DNA of 64,000 nt, from NCBI GenBank assembly GCA_021838785.1, contig JAKCCV010000001.1:248001-312000 (forward strand). Reading direction: 5' to 3'. Shown here in pieces: positions 31,638 through 39,126 of the stretch (position 1 is its first letter; each line of letters opens with the position of its first letter). The notes under the pieces are model-generated. The model was given only the letters and a program-made list of their open reading frames with translations, ran no database searches and was not told the origin of the DNA. The position numbers and the translations under genes were made by a program. This stretch comes from Acidobacteriota bacterium. Lineage in GTDB: Bacteria; Acidobacteriota; Terriglobia; UBA7540.

Positions 31638-33197
31638 TCAATGCGCTGCTATCCCACCCGGGCGAGTTCTTGGTCTTTTCATGAGGAGGATGAAGGGCCC
31701 CATCACGATGAAGATGACGGCCAGAGTCCAAAAGGTGGCGTTATAGGCGAGCATGGCGCTGTGGCGCTCCACGATGCGGAACAGCAAGGCGTTGGCGCGA
31801 GCGGTGGCCGTTGCCCAATCGGCACCTTTGGCGAAGAACATTTGCTGCAGCGAACTCCGCAGCATTCGGCTGCGGAGGCTGTATGGATTGACGTGCCGGC
31901 CCAGGAGGTTGAAATAGAGCTGTTCGCGCCTGGCCACCAGCGTGGTGGAAGCGGCGATGCCCATACTGCCGCCGAGATTCCGCATCAAATTGAAGATGCT
32001 GGTGGCGTTGCCCATGCGTTCATTGGGAATCGGATCCATGGTGATGGTGGTGAGAGGCACGAAGACCATCCCCATTGCCAAACCCTGAATCAACTGCGGC
32101 CAGAACACCTGCCAATAGCCGATGCTCAGGTTCAGCGTGCCCAGCATCATAAAGCTGATGGCGGTCACCAACACACCCGCGCTGAGCATTTTGCGCGCGT
32201 CAAAGCGTGTCAAAAGAAATCCCACCGTGGGCATCATCAAAAAGGAACCAAAGCCGCGGGGGAATAAAGCGATGCCCGCCTGGAGCGCCGGGTAGCCGAG
32301 CAACGTTTGCAGCAGCAGCGGAAGGATGACCAAACCGCCGTAAAGTCCGAAGCCCAACAAGGTCATCAAAAACACGCCGGTGCTGTAAGTGCGAACTTTG
32401 AAGACCCGCAAGTCCACCACCGGATGTTCGGTCAGAAGCTCGCGGGCAATGAAAATGACCAGCGCGATGGCCGCGATGATGGCCAAGGTGAGGATAAAAT
32501 GGGAGCCAAACCAGTCATCTTCCTGGCCTTTATCCAGGACAATTTGAAGGCTTGCGACGCCCACGGCCAAAAAGCCGATGCCCCAGTAATCAATGCGGCT
32601 TTCGGTCCGCCTGAGATACGGGGGATCGAAGATGAAGAGCTCGGTCATGACCAGCGCCAGAATGCCCACCGGCACGTTGATGTAAAACACCCACCGCCAG
32701 CTATAGCTATCCGTAATCCAGCCGCCGAGCACCGGTCCGAGCATGGGAGCCACCACAATGCCCAGTCCCCAAAAGCCCATGGCTTTGCCGCGCTCTTCGG
32801 GAGGGAAGGTTTCCAGCAGCACGGCCTGAGAGATGGGTTGCAACCCGCCGCCACAGGCGCCTTGAATGACCCGGAAGACGATGAGGGCGGAAAGGGTGGG
32901 AGCGAACCCGCACAAGAACGAAGCCGCGGTAAAGCCGGTGACCGCTAACATCAGAAGGCGCTTGCGCCCGAACCGGCTGGCCAACCAGCCCGTCATGGGA
33001 AGAATAATGGCGTTGGCCACCAGGTAGGAGGTCAAAGCCCAGGTAGCTTCATCCGGCGTCGCCGAGAGGCTGCCCGCAATATGAGGCAGCGACACATTGA
33101 CGACGGTCGTATCCAGCACTTCCATAAACGTGCTGAGCATTACCGCGATGGCGATGATCCAACGATTGATGGGCGGGTTTTCAGTGGATTCGGTCAT
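31638..33197 (-). CDS. emrB: DHA2-family multidrug efflux transporter (EmrB-like)
   Basis: This 519-residue protein is a major-facilitator drug:proton antiporter with about 14 membrane helices. The N-terminus has FMEVLDTTVVNVSLPHIAG, typical of DHA2 proteins. GWLASRFGRKRLLM in the loop between helices 2 and 3 is the MFS motif A, and GPVLGGWITDSYSWRWVF is the antiporter motif C. I chose the ATG at 33197, two bases after the stop of the kinase-like gene; a TTG at 33203 is also in frame. With the upstream EmrA-like and TolC-like genes it should form an inner-membrane-to-outer-membrane efflux system. Substrates are unknown. Confidence 0.92.
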   Translation of the reverse strand: MTESTENPPINRWIIAIAVMLSTFMEVLDTTVVNVSLPHIAGSLSATPDEATWALTSYLVANAIILPMTGWLASRFGRKRLLMLAVTGFTAASFLCGFAPTLSALIVFRVIQGACGGGLQPISQAVLLETFPPEERGKAMGFWGLGIVVAPMLGPVLGGWITDSYSWRWVFYINVPVGILALVMTELFIFDPPYLRRTESRIDYWGIGFLAVGVASLQIVLDKGQEDDWFGSHFILTLAIIAAIALVIFIARELLTEHPVVDLRVFKVRTYSTGVFLMTLLGFGLYGGLVILPLLLQTLLGYPALQAGIALFPRGFGSFLMMPTVGFLLTRFDARKMLSAGVLVTAISFMMLGTLNLSIGYWQVFWPQLIQGLAMGMVFVPLTTITMDPIPNERMGNATSIFNLMRNLGGSMGIAASTTLVARREQLYFNLLGRHVNPYSLRSRMLRSSLQQMFFAKGADWATATARANALLFRIVERHSAMLAYNATFWTLAVIFIVMGPFILLMKRPRTRPGGIAAH

Positions 33198-33199
33198 TC

Positions 33200-33820
33200 T
33201 CAATTGTTCGGGGAAAGTCCGGCCGCCGAGAGAATCGTCCGGACAACGGTCTCAAGGCCCAAGGAGGAAGTAATCGTCAGATGATAGAGGCGCCGGTCCT
33301 TCCGGTTTTCACCGTAGTACCGCTGGACGTAAGCTGCGCGCTGACGGTCCCTTTCCGTCAGGAGGGTGTCGTAGTCAGTTTCAGGCCCCAAGCGCTGGCG
33401 CAGGCGATCGAGCTTCTCCCGGTGTGGCGCAAAGATAGAAGCGTGGAAGGCGTCGTTGCGGTCGCGCAGGATACACTGGCTGCCGCGCCCCACGATGACG
33501 CATTCTCCGGCCCGAGCGGCTTCGCGAATGGTCTCTGCGGTCAGTTCGGCCATGGCTTCGGCGTCAAACGGTTCGGGCGTGGGCGAGCCAGCCGCAGCTT
33601 CAAAGCCCCCACGCCAGAGGGCCTTGATCAGACGGTTAAACCACGGATCCACTTGTTCGTCCCAGCGGGCCGCGGCCGCGGCAGGAATCCGAGCTCGGCG
33701 CGCGACTTCTTCGATAATCTTAACGTCGAGAAGTTTCCATCCCAGCCGCTGAGCGAGCATTTCCGCAATCTTCCCGCCTCCGCTGGCATATTCACGGCTG
33801 ATGGTGATGGCGCGAAACAT
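33200..33820 (-). CDS. Cytidylate kinase-like family protein
   Basis: This 206-residue protein starts at the ATG at 33820. The N-terminal ITISREYASGGGKIAEMLAQ followed by LGWKLLDVKIIEEVARR is the typical opening of cytidylate-kinase-like P-loop proteins (AAK-type), where SGGGKIA stands for the usual nucleotide loop. CVIVGRGSQCIL and a Arg-rich lid region (DRQRAAYVQRYYGENRKDRRLY) follow. Its substrate is unknown; it is distinct from true Cmk. It is embedded in the efflux operon, 10 bp after the EmrA-like gene and 2 bp before the EmrB-like gene, so a link with the transporter is plausible but unproven. Confidence 0.82.
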   Translation of the reverse strand: MFRAITISREYASGGGKIAEMLAQRLGWKLLDVKIIEEVARRARIPAAAAARWDEQVDPWFNRLIKALWRGGFEAAAGSPTPEPFDAEAMAELTAETIREAARAGECVIVGRGSQCILRDRNDAFHASIFAPHREKLDRLRQRLGPETDYDTLLTERDRQRAAYVQRYYGENRKDRRLYHLTITSSLGLETVVRTILSAAGLSPNN

Positions 33821-35097: not shown

Positions 35098-36720
35098 TCA
35101 CTTCGAATAAAGCTTTTCGATCTGGCCCATGGCGCGGGCTAATTCGGCCCGCGACTCGTTGTATTGGTAGAGCGCGCCAATCTGGTTGTCGTTGGCGCGC
35201 GCCAACTCATCTTGCGCGGTGATCACCTCGATGTTGTCGGCGACGCCGGCGGCAAAGCGGTCGCGCGCCTCCACCACCTCCTGTTGGGCTAATTTTACGC
35301 CCAGGTTGGCCACCTCCACTTGATGGCGGGCGGACTCCAAATCCACCAGCGCCGTCTTCACCTCGAGAGCAATCCGGTCGCGGATATCCTGCGCCTGCTC
35401 TTGAAGCGAGCGGAGTTCGAGCCGGGCTTTGGTTTGATTGGCGCGGATTCGGCCGCTTGAAATCAGAGGAAACTGAACGTCCACCTGATAGGTGTACGCG
35501 GGAATGGAGGACGCCAGCGAGAGACCCTGATATTCCCAGCTTCCATCAATGTTGACCGTCGGCCAGCGCTCGGCGCGGGCGGCCCGGATTTCGGACGCGG
35601 CGGCTTGCTCCTGCGCCCGAATAGCTTTCAGTTCCGGCCGTTGGGCGAAGGCGGCGGCCAACGTCGAGTTGGCATGGAACCCCGGCGTTTGGAAAAAGCT
35701 CATCTCGTTTTTCAGAATGATCGGCTGGTTAGGGTTTAAGTTCAGCAGGCGAGCCAAACCGTATGAGGCCGTTTTGTAATCGGTCTCCGCCTGGATTCGC
35801 CGTTGCAATTCATTTTGAAGTTCCACATTGGCGCGGAGCGTGTCCAGCGCCGTGCCCACGCCGTGCTTCTGGAGGTCGAGGGCCTGCTGATAGAGCGCGC
35901 GGGCCAACGCCACCCGTGCCTGCGAGGCTTTGACGTTGGCCGCCGCGCGCAGTCCGTCCAGATATTGCGAAACCACCAGCAGCACCGTCTGTTCGCGCAC
36001 CGTCGTCAAATCCTCCTCGCTCGCCTGAACCACGTGATGCGAGGCTTGCCATTTCCGCAAAAGGCTGAGATTGAACACTGGAATCGAGAACCGCGGGCCC
36101 GATTGAAAGACTTGAAAGGGACCGACATGCTCAAAGGGCAGAGGAAAGGCGCCGCCCGCAAAGGCCTTGATGTTGAAACGCTCCGCCTCATCGAAAGTGT
36201 CGAGGGTGGCCTGGGGCAACAGGCCGGATCGAGTCAGCTTGACATCCTGCTGACTTTCGGCCAAGGTCAAATTGGCGATTTGGACTTGCGGATTCTGCCG
36301 TAAAGCCAAGGCGATGGCCTGCCGGAGGCTCAAGGCGAGCGGCGGCTTCTGCGCCGCGCGGGCTTTGGACCCAGCCATCCACGGAAGCAACATCATCAGC
36401 ACCCAGCCGGTCAGGCGCTTGGCGGGGTGGCCTTCGCTGGTGGCAGGGGCTTGCTGGGAAATTTCCTCCACCACACATTTGGTCAGGCAACCGCGCGCCT
36501 GTAGCTCGCCGCCGGCCTGGTGAATCCGCGCCAACACGCGCTTGCCCTCCGCGTCAATAAAAGTGACCCCCGCCAAGTCCACCACCACCTTCTGCGCCTG
36601 GCCTGGGTTCTGCGCTTGCTGCCAACTTCGTTCGAGTTCTGAGGCCCAAAGCCCGACCAATTTGCCTTCCAGCTTTAACGTAATTTGATGCGGCTCAAAC
36701 CGTGTGGTGATTTTTAGCAT
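35098..36720 (-). CDS. STAS domain fused to a TolC-family outer-membrane efflux protein
   Basis: The 540-residue product starts at the ATG at 36720 (AGGGAA upstream). Residues 1-85 read as a STAS domain with KVVVDLAGVTFIDAEGKRVL (44-63). The position of the phosphorylated Ser in SpoIIAA-type proteins is Ala57. After a polar linker comes a signal-peptide-like segment at 101-123 with a hydrophobic run and KARAA. The remainder (about 130-540) has two outer-membrane efflux repeats with long heptad helices, as in TolC. A cytosolic domain before an export signal is unexpected. No start codon with a ribosome binding site separates the two parts. It leads the emrA-kinase-emrB operon. Confidence 0.85.
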   Translation of the reverse strand: MLKITTRFEPHQITLKLEGKLVGLWASELERSWQQAQNPGQAQKVVVDLAGVTFIDAEGKRVLARIHQAGGELQARGCLTKCVVEEISQQAPATSEGHPAKRLTGWVLMMLLPWMAGSKARAAQKPPLALSLRQAIALALRQNPQVQIANLTLAESQQDVKLTRSGLLPQATLDTFDEAERFNIKAFAGGAFPLPFEHVGPFQVFQSGPRFSIPVFNLSLLRKWQASHHVVQASEEDLTTVREQTVLLVVSQYLDGLRAAANVKASQARVALARALYQQALDLQKHGVGTALDTLRANVELQNELQRRIQAETDYKTASYGLARLLNLNPNQPIILKNEMSFFQTPGFHANSTLAAAFAQRPELKAIRAQEQAAASEIRAARAERWPTVNIDGSWEYQGLSLASSIPAYTYQVDVQFPLISSGRIRANQTKARLELRSLQEQAQDIRDRIALEVKTALVDLESARHQVEVANLGVKLAQQEVVEARDRFAAGVADNIEVITAQDELARANDNQIGALYQYNESRAELARAMGQIEKLYSK

Positions 36721-36830
36721 AGGCGATTCCCTGTTGTTCCCCAAGAGCGCAAGGCAATTGAACGTCCAAGCAGGTGGATGCCGCTGGTTTTCGTGTAAGC
36801 CATTGAAAAATCAGTATGTTATTTATAGCG

Positions 36831-36930: not shown

Positions 36931-39126
36931 TCAAGGCCGGACGAGGCCGAGCTTGCGCATCCGCGACTGGAGGGTGGTGCGTTTCAAGCCCAGGAGGCGG
37001 GCGGCGCCGCTTGGGCCGCCGATAACCCATCGGGCTTGCTGAAGGGCGCGCAGGATGTGCTCCCGCTCGGCTTCCTGCAGCGTCACGGGATGCGCGGGCG
37101 GATCGGGCGTGAGCGGCGGCTGTCTCAGCTCGGAGAGGGGCAACCGCAGAGCCGGTCCGGGCGAAAGGATGACGGCGCGCTCAATCAAATTTTGGAGCTC
37201 GCGCACATTACCCGGCCACGGGTAGCGGATCAGTTCTTGGAGCACTTCGGTCGGGATGCTTTCAATTTGGCGATCCATCTGCCGAGCGTATTTTTGCGCG
37301 AAGTACCGGACGAGCAGAGGAATGTCTTCCGGGCGCTCGCGCAGGGGCGGGACGGTCAAAGGAAAGACACTGAGGCGGTAATAGAGATCAGAGCGAAAGA
37401 TGCCGGCCTGCACCATCTCCGCCAGGTTGCGGTTGGTGGCTGCTACCAGGCGAACATCGGTGCGAATGGTACGGACGCCGCCCAGCCGCTCAAACTCCTG
37501 CTCTTGCAAGACGCGCAAGAGCTTGGGTTGGAGTTCAAGAGGGATATCGCCCACTTCGTCCAAAAAGAGTGTGCCGCCGCTCGCCAACTCAAAGCGGCCG
37601 ATTTTTTGGGTCAGTGCGCCGGTGAACGCGCCGCGCTCGTGGCCAAACAGTTCGCTCTCCAGCAGGCCGGTGGGGATAGCGGCGCAGTTGAGCTTGACGA
37701 AGGCGCGTTCGCGGCGTCGGCTCAGGTTGTGGATGGCGCGGGCGATCAATTCCTTCCCCGTCCCCGTTTCACCCAGGATGAGGACCGTAGAATCGGTAGG
37801 GGCAACGGTTTCGACGTCGCGCAGCACGCGCTTGAGCGCGGCACTTTCTCCGATGATCTCCTCAAAATTGTACTCGGTGCGAATTTCATCTTCCAGGTAC
37901 AGTTTCTCCTCCGCCAATTTTTCTTTGAGGGCGGCAATCTGGCGGAATTGGAGGGCGTTTTCCATGGCAATGGCGATTTGGCCGGCCGCTTGAGTGAGAA
38001 AATCCAAGTCTCTCTGGGTAAGTGCGGGTCCGTGAGCGCGCCCCAGCAGGAGAGCGCCCAACAGGCGGCTGCGCCCCATGAGGGGCAGACAACAGCCATT
38101 CGGCGCACCGTCCCCGGAACCGGATCGCCGCAACATGGCCCTGAAGCCCTCAGACCAAAGAGGGCTTTGGGCATAGTCGGCGCGCGTTAAATCGAGCCGT
38201 AAGGTTTGACGCTTGGCAATGGCCTGGCCGAGAGGATCCTCGGTCGGACGAACGGAGGTCGGCGGCGGCAGGGGTCCGTCGCGATGCGGAATAGCGTACA
38301 CGCGCAAGGCGCCGGCGTCTTCGTCGAAGACAGCCAGCGCAGCTTCATCGCATTCCACGATGCGGCGCAGCGCTCGGCCAAGAGCGGAGCGCAGGTCGTC
38401 CAGCTCCAAGTGAGAGACCAAGGCATTGGTGATGTCGAGCAGGGCGCGAAGGCGGTCTCGTTCTTGCGCGAGTTGACGCTGATAGGATTCCAAACTCTCG
38501 GTGTTCAGCCCATTGTCCACGGCGAGCGCCACTTGGCGGGCCAGTTGAGTGAGTAATTTGAGATCCACGCCCGTATAAGCATTAGCTTGAGAACTGCCAA
38601 AGCCGAGCGTTCCAATGCGGCGCTGGGCGGTGGTCAACGGCAGAGAGCAGATGGATTTCACGCCGTGAGCGCGCAGCATGTCGAAGACCCTGGGAAAGCG
38701 CGGGTCGTTTTCGATGTTGGCAAGCACGAGCGGGGTCTGCCTTTCAAAGCTCCACCCGGCGGGCGACTCCTCGACCGTAAACTCCACCCCGGCCTCGACC
38801 TCGATGGGGAGGGCGCTCTCTAAAATGTGCAGCCGCATGGTGCGGCGCTCCGGCTCGTAAAGCATCAGGGTCAGGAAGTCATAGCGCACGACGCGGTGCA
38901 GCCGCGCCGCCAAATCGTGAAAGAGCGCTTTCAGGTCTCGGTGGGCGGCAATGGACTCGGAAACTTCCAAAAGCGAGGTGTGAGGGTCGCCGCCATGCGC
39001 CGTCGAGGAGGCGGAACCGGATCGGGCGAAGCGGGGCGAGCGAGGCCGTACGGGCACTCGCGGAGATTGCTCGCGTTTTCCTGACCGAGGCGATGAGGAA
39101 GCGGATGAAGCTCGGCGCCGGCTCAT
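36931..39126 (-). CDS. Sigma-54-dependent transcriptional activator with two GAF domains
   Basis: This 731-residue FhlA-like activator has two GAF sensor domains (about 50-205 and 225-390), a coiled linker, and an AAA+ domain (about 422-655). The AAA+ domain has Walker A GETGTGKE (452-459), the sigma-54 contact loop GAFTGA (499-504) and Walker B TLFLDEVGD (519-527). A Fis-type helix-turn-helix (about 685-728, GAARLLGLKRTTLQSRMRKLG) ends it. It should activate sigma-54 promoters on a small-molecule signal. The efflux operon begins 210 bp downstream with repeated motifs between, so that operon is the likely target. No phosphorylatable receiver domain is present. Confidence 0.93.
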   Translation of the reverse strand: MSRRRASSASSSPRSGKREQSPRVPVRPRSPRFARSGSASSTAHGGDPHTSLLEVSESIAAHRDLKALFHDLAARLHRVVRYDFLTLMLYEPERRTMRLHILESALPIEVEAGVEFTVEESPAGWSFERQTPLVLANIENDPRFPRVFDMLRAHGVKSICSLPLTTAQRRIGTLGFGSSQANAYTGVDLKLLTQLARQVALAVDNGLNTESLESYQRQLAQERDRLRALLDITNALVSHLELDDLRSALGRALRRIVECDEAALAVFDEDAGALRVYAIPHRDGPLPPPTSVRPTEDPLGQAIAKRQTLRLDLTRADYAQSPLWSEGFRAMLRRSGSGDGAPNGCCLPLMGRSRLLGALLLGRAHGPALTQRDLDFLTQAAGQIAIAMENALQFRQIAALKEKLAEEKLYLEDEIRTEYNFEEIIGESAALKRVLRDVETVAPTDSTVLILGETGTGKELIARAIHNLSRRRERAFVKLNCAAIPTGLLESELFGHERGAFTGALTQKIGRFELASGGTLFLDEVGDIPLELQPKLLRVLQEQEFERLGGVRTIRTDVRLVAATNRNLAEMVQAGIFRSDLYYRLSVFPLTVPPLRERPEDIPLLVRYFAQKYARQMDRQIESIPTEVLQELIRYPWPGNVRELQNLIERAVILSPGPALRLPLSELRQPPLTPDPPAHPVTLQEAEREHILRALQQARWVIGGPSGAARLLGLKRTTLQSRMRKLGLVRP

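Follow-up and report, generated by a model that had tools for sequence, protein, structure and literature searches.

EmrAB-TolC is a tripartite MFS pump, and the locus described here resembles it in that an adaptor, a DHA2 permease and a TolC-family channel are encoded in one operon. It differs in that the channel gene begins with a STAS domain, that a cytidylate-kinase-like gene often lies between emrA and emrB, and that a sigma-54 motif and a GAF-AAA activator are present, whereas EmrAB-TolC has the MarR-type repressor EmrR. The STAS domain shares its fold (Z of about 11 to 12) and a conserved Asp-x-x-Gly loop with the anti-sigma-factor antagonists SpoIIAA and RsbV, but here there is no phosphorylatable Ser and no SpoIIAB/RsbW-type kinase in the operon, the link is to sigma-54, and an export signal is fused to the domain. 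MlaB, the STAS subunit of a lipid ABC transporter, is likewise a small STAS protein tied to an envelope transport system; however, MlaB binds an ABC ATPase, no such partner was found in the operon of the window (the whole 64,000-nucleotide stretch of DNA that was analysed), and the sequence match to MlaB is only marginal.

Control of a sigma-54 activator by a protein whose gene lies among or close to the target genes is known from the pairs PspA-PspF, NifL-NifA and HrpV-HrpS. In contrast to these, regulation would here fall to a STAS domain that is the leader of an outer-membrane protein precursor. In FbcH of Bradyrhizobium japonicum, one polypeptide is cut at an internal signal peptide to give two subunits of respiratory complexes, whereas the products here would be a cytosolic domain and an outer-membrane channel. 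The arrangement was not found in literature on STAS with TolC, OEP, Acidobacteria, sigma-54 or enhancer-binding proteins, a search that covered few subscription journals, and a survey of sigma-54 regulons (PMC12316311) makes no mention of Acidobacteria, TolC or STAS.

Gene layout and operon

A single frame of 540 residues runs on the minus strand from the ATG at 36720 to the stop codon at 35098 (ORF listing); the plus strand of 35098-36720 is full of stops. All genes of the cluster lie on the minus strand, in the order activator, STAS-channel, EmrA-like adaptor, cytidylate-kinase-like protein and EmrB-type exporter:

36931..39126, minus strand: sigma-54 activator with two GAF domains, an AAA+ domain with GAFTGA and a Fis-type HTH (FhlA/NifA-like)
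36754..36768, minus strand: sigma-54 type -24/-12 promoter motif TGGACGTTCAATTGC, a consensus match that starts 48 nt before the ATG
36457..36720, minus strand: STAS domain, residues 1-88, from the ATG at 36720, with Asp56-Ala57-Glu58-Gly59-Lys60 at the position of the switch loop
36415..36456, minus strand: linker, residues 89-102, predicted to be disordered, fast-evolving yet in frame (dN/dS 0.51)
36355..36420, minus strand: internal signal sequence, about residues 101-122, KRLTGWVLMMLLPWMAGSKARA followed by AQ, with a predicted signal peptidase I site after Ala122 (between ARA and AQ)
35098..36354, minus strand: mature TolC-family outer-membrane channel (OEP), residues 123-540, and stop codon
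33831..35087, minus strand: EmrA-like periplasmic adaptor (TIGR00998 with 270 bits, below the cut-off of 391; TIGR01730 with 131 bits, above the cut-off of 95)
33200..33820, minus strand: cytidylate-kinase-like protein (PF13189) between emrA and emrB, its true start probably near 33811-33820
31638..33203, minus strand: EmrB-type DHA2 MFS drug exporter (TIGR00711 with 518 bits, cut-off 230)

An EmrA-type adaptor and a DHA2 EmrB permease, the pair by which an EmrAB-TolC system is recognized, are thus both encoded in the operon. In the fused protein, the STAS profile (PF01740) matches residues 6-76 with 24.7 bits against a curated Pfam cut-off of 22.6, and OEP (PF02321) matches the channel part in two stretches (2.4e-53). 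In the full-length AlphaFold model, the STAS domain is followed by a linker without order (91-103), then by a helix (104-116) and the TolC fold; Foldseek aligned the channel to TolC with an E value of 9e-20, and the two OEP repeats together with the TolC fold identify it as an outer-membrane factor. Residues 1-95, modeled with a pLDDT of 88, matched anti-sigma antagonists at Z 11-12 and 2.0-2.4 Å (for example, Z 11.9, 2.1 Å and 90 aligned residues), which establishes the STAS fold, and a profile of the N-terminal family retrieved TM1442 (7e-6) and SpoIIAA (1e-3), both anti-sigma-factor antagonists, from the PDB. A first-pass annotation of the window had read STAS domain and TolC-like exporter as one open frame, and the minus-strand ORF, Pfam, the structure models and 44 distinct fusions all agree with that reading. 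It had overlooked the minus strand, the context of sigma-54 promoter and activator, and the pump operon.

Distribution of the fusion

The search covered 61 relatives as well as species genomes from a collection, nearly all sequences being from metagenome-assembled or draft genomes. The 44 distinct single-ORF fusions of STAS and channel, 42-78% identical, are all acidobacterial and belong to the window's own family and to a gp2-like group of acidobacteria with Candidatus Acidiferrum among its members. Of the 75 loci from the collection, 74 carry the label Acidobacteriota; the remaining one, L095, is labelled Betaproteobacteria, groups within the gp2 acidobacterial fusions and is probably a mislabelled genome bin. 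A further fusion (L188) was found in another class and is of unsure placement. The channel tree needs five changes and does not reject a single clade of all fusions (AU p 0.078), and the STAS tree, built from only 90 columns, favors such a clade (AU p 0.78).

Other acidobacterial loci have the same parts in other arrangements. In Bryobacterales, the STAS domain is a gene of its own ahead of the activator and the channel is without STAS; with a second channel type (about 35% identical), the STAS gene stands between activator and channel, and other pump operons carry separate STAS genes at the position of the fusion. Two genomes of the same genus have separate STAS and channel genes, with the stop at codon 99-100 (TGA-ATG in G026, TAG and then ATG in G013), a state that may be ancestral or secondarily split. 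The first-pass annotation had named a stop and restart near residue 95 in relatives as what would speak against the fusion; these two genomes of one genus have it, as exceptions beside the 44 in-frame fusions.

Several lineages have lost the STAS domain and retained the channel, and therefore, STAS is dispensable for export. In G010 (L053), an in-frame deletion has kept the first 16 STAS residues and joined MLRITTDSHRKEVTLK directly to VIALLLLPLLAAGANLRSEE, so that the same signal works as an ordinary N-terminal one. L114 starts with MLRI ahead of its signal and may be a second deletion scar of this kind.

The window and several relatives have the activator gene next to the fusion. In the gp2 clade it is not directly adjacent; its nearest homologue lies 12 kb off (G041) or on another contig (G056). 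The cytidylate-kinase-like gene (PF13189) between emrA and emrB is found in the window and several relatives and is missing in others.

A STAS subfamily that accompanies sigma-54 activators

The residue that is phosphorylated in SpoIIAA, a Ser directly after the loop Asp, is aligned with Ala57, as the first-pass annotation had stated; at this position, 39 aligned fused proteins have no Ser and a single Thr. No HATPase anti-sigma kinase is encoded beside the fusion, whose neighbors are the activator, emrA, the cytidylate-kinase-like gene and emrB. A partner switch by phosphorylation is rejected, since the Ser is missing throughout the fused proteins, and the state of the STAS domain must therefore depend on binding, concentration or location.

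The promoters and neighbors of the STAS genes point to a function. In 48 of 54 loci, including the window, a TGG-N9-TGC motif begins at -60 to -35 relative to the start codon of STAS (consensus matches), compared to about 6 occurrences in the rest of the 400 nt upstream over the same loci. The window's genome has a gene for sigma-54 as well as the AAA+ activator with GAFTGA. In Bryobacterales, the motif stands ahead of the operon of STAS and activator and also ahead of the channel gene; at the channel genes of several STAS-less clades, no sigma-54 motif was found. A survey of the phylum (247 genomes) found this STAS subfamily in 27 of them. Twenty of its loci were opened, four of them closely related among themselves. 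A GAF-AAA activator lies within 4 kb in 16 of the 20, and the motif stands at -28 to -48 in 14. Within the window's genome, each of the two subfamily members adjoins an activator, and none of the five other STAS genes has one within 40 kb. The second member (L004/L070, C30:27936-28247) directly follows a GAF-AAA activator and is itself followed by a CRP-like regulator, with no pump.

The same two-product precursor could also be read with a STAS domain that acts on the pump instead of on transcription, as MlaB does on the ATPase MlaF or as the STAS domain of SLC26 does on its transporter. Regulation of transporters by STAS domains is described elsewhere (PMC7367683), and the fused STAS always precedes emrA and, on contigs that extend far enough, nearly always emrB as well. 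However, RND, ABC or MFS pump genes alike are often found downstream of the stand-alone STAS genes of the subfamily, and the relatives L073 and L074 have no pump at all, the order there being activator, receiver protein, STAS and CRP-like regulator, with the receiver between activator and STAS. The common partner is the sigma-54 activator and no single pump type, and we consider direct action on the pump unlikely. Because members of the subfamily are found with sigma-54 activators alongside pumps of several types, they most likely work for the transcription circuit rather than for one particular pump.

The internal signal and the fate of the precursor

All 44 single-ORF fusions have a hydrophobic core at about residues 102-125, and in the 39 aligned fusions, from both clades, this internal signal is followed at a fixed distance after the core by a small-x-small site, mostly A-x-A before Q, E or D. 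The internal signal sequence claimed by the first-pass annotation is borne out by this conserved core and site, as far as prediction goes. Three fates had been offered for the STAS domain, namely, export, a block of export, or cleavage. With no signal before STAS and a conserved cleavage site of the A-x-A type before Q, E or D in the internal signal, a split into STAS and an exported channel is likely, and of the three fates, a cut that leaves STAS on the cytoplasmic side agrees best with these features. This split of the precursor is well supported by the sequences.

The dN/dS values are 0.12 for STAS, 0.16 for the channel, 0.34 for the signal and 0.51 for the linker, which means that every part is read in frame and indicates purifying selection on STAS as strong as that on the channel. 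The linker differs in length among the fusions by multiples of three. In the gp2 loci (L094-L113 and related), the internal signal opens with (K/R)GSHI(I/V)FY, in the forms SHIIFY and SHIVFY; the motif seems to be better conserved than export by a plain signal peptide would require, which hints at an additional function.

Internal initiation, by which a separate channel with an ordinary N-terminal signal would be made as well and the fusion would be a by-product, might be considered: a few members (G011, G020) keep an ATG with a fair Shine-Dalgarno sequence before the signal, and a true stop and restart is found in G026 and G013. In the window, however, there is no ATG, GTG or TTG between residue 87 and the start of the hydrophobic core, in accordance with the first-pass annotation, which had seen no usable internal start; the first candidates, GTG107 and ATG109/110, fall within the core. 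The window is one of 21 fusions out of 44 without any such codon between STAS and core, an ATG is present there in only 3 of the 44, and the other candidates are scattered and mostly weak. Hence, internal restart is rejected as a general rule, and internal initiation as the source of the channel is improbable.

The signal might also stay uncleaved, and STAS would then tether the channel subunit to the inner membrane or brake its export. A folded N-terminal domain ahead of a signal is indeed unusual, but the small-x-small site lies at a constant distance from the core in both clades, and a TolC channel has to be untethered to form its trimer in the outer membrane. We regard this as very improbable. 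An artifact, either a frameshift or an assembly join of two genes, has next to no probability: the two relatives with separate genes and the frameshifts within the channel part on the G020 and G021 contigs are outweighed by 44 in-frame sequences, whose linkers differ in length by multiples of three and whose STAS part is under purifying selection, and the sequencing error that the first-pass annotation had named as a possible cause is excluded.

Two further gene forms were observed in the survey. L206:6062-6502, which lies ahead of genes for an RND pump, encodes a stand-alone STAS domain that carries a hydrophobic helix at its C-terminus; its product looks like the predicted STAS cleavage product, encoded as a gene of its own. 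In L189, L190, L191 and L192 (e.g., L190:7735-12159), from STAS-headed operons of another acidobacterial family, a single frame of about 1475 aa joins an AcrB-type RND pump to a TolC-family channel. The junction holds a hydrophobic signal-like segment, SILPLVVLALAFASPLSAA followed by TPE, and this fusion is apparently another precursor with an internal export signal.

Model and implications

The best explanation, which we put forward with moderate confidence, is a precursor of two products whose STAS part regulates the sigma-54 activator. In our model, STAS would fold in the cytoplasm, and the internal signal sequence would start Sec export of the TolC-like part that follows. Signal peptidase I would cut after A-x-A, and the channel would reach the outer membrane, where it would work for the EmrAB-type MFS pump whose genes lie downstream. 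STAS would remain on the cytoplasmic side, either free or anchored in the inner membrane by its hydrophobic tail. Transcription of the operon would depend on sigma-54 RNA polymerase and on the GAF-AAA activator, whose gene lies directly upstream, and STAS, whether released or tethered, may act as a non-phosphorylatable partner or feedback regulator of this activator. The sequences show the fusion and its conservation, the internal signal with its cleavage motif, the sigma-54 motif and the synteny. From synteny and promoters, we infer the regulatory role of STAS; cleavage itself, membrane tethering and action on the activator are inferred as well. Feedback on the activator would be the simplest reading of the role of STAS. 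The hydrophobic tail left on STAS after cleavage could also be degraded. A tentative and rather doubtful extension of the model is a feedback device of envelope biogenesis: each exported channel subunit would leave one membrane-tethered STAS on the cytoplasmic side, this STAS would directly tune the sigma-54 activator that controls its own operon, and the cell would in this way count its exported channels by their leader domain.

Acidobacteriota are a major phylum of soil, with few genetic studies. If the model is true, they would have a bacterial precursor whose leader is a whole signaling domain, and one reading frame would give rise to two proteins, each in a compartment of its own. A STAS subfamily whose partners are sigma-54 activators in place of anti-sigma kinases would also be defined, and a circuit that controls the efflux pumps of this phylum would be named.
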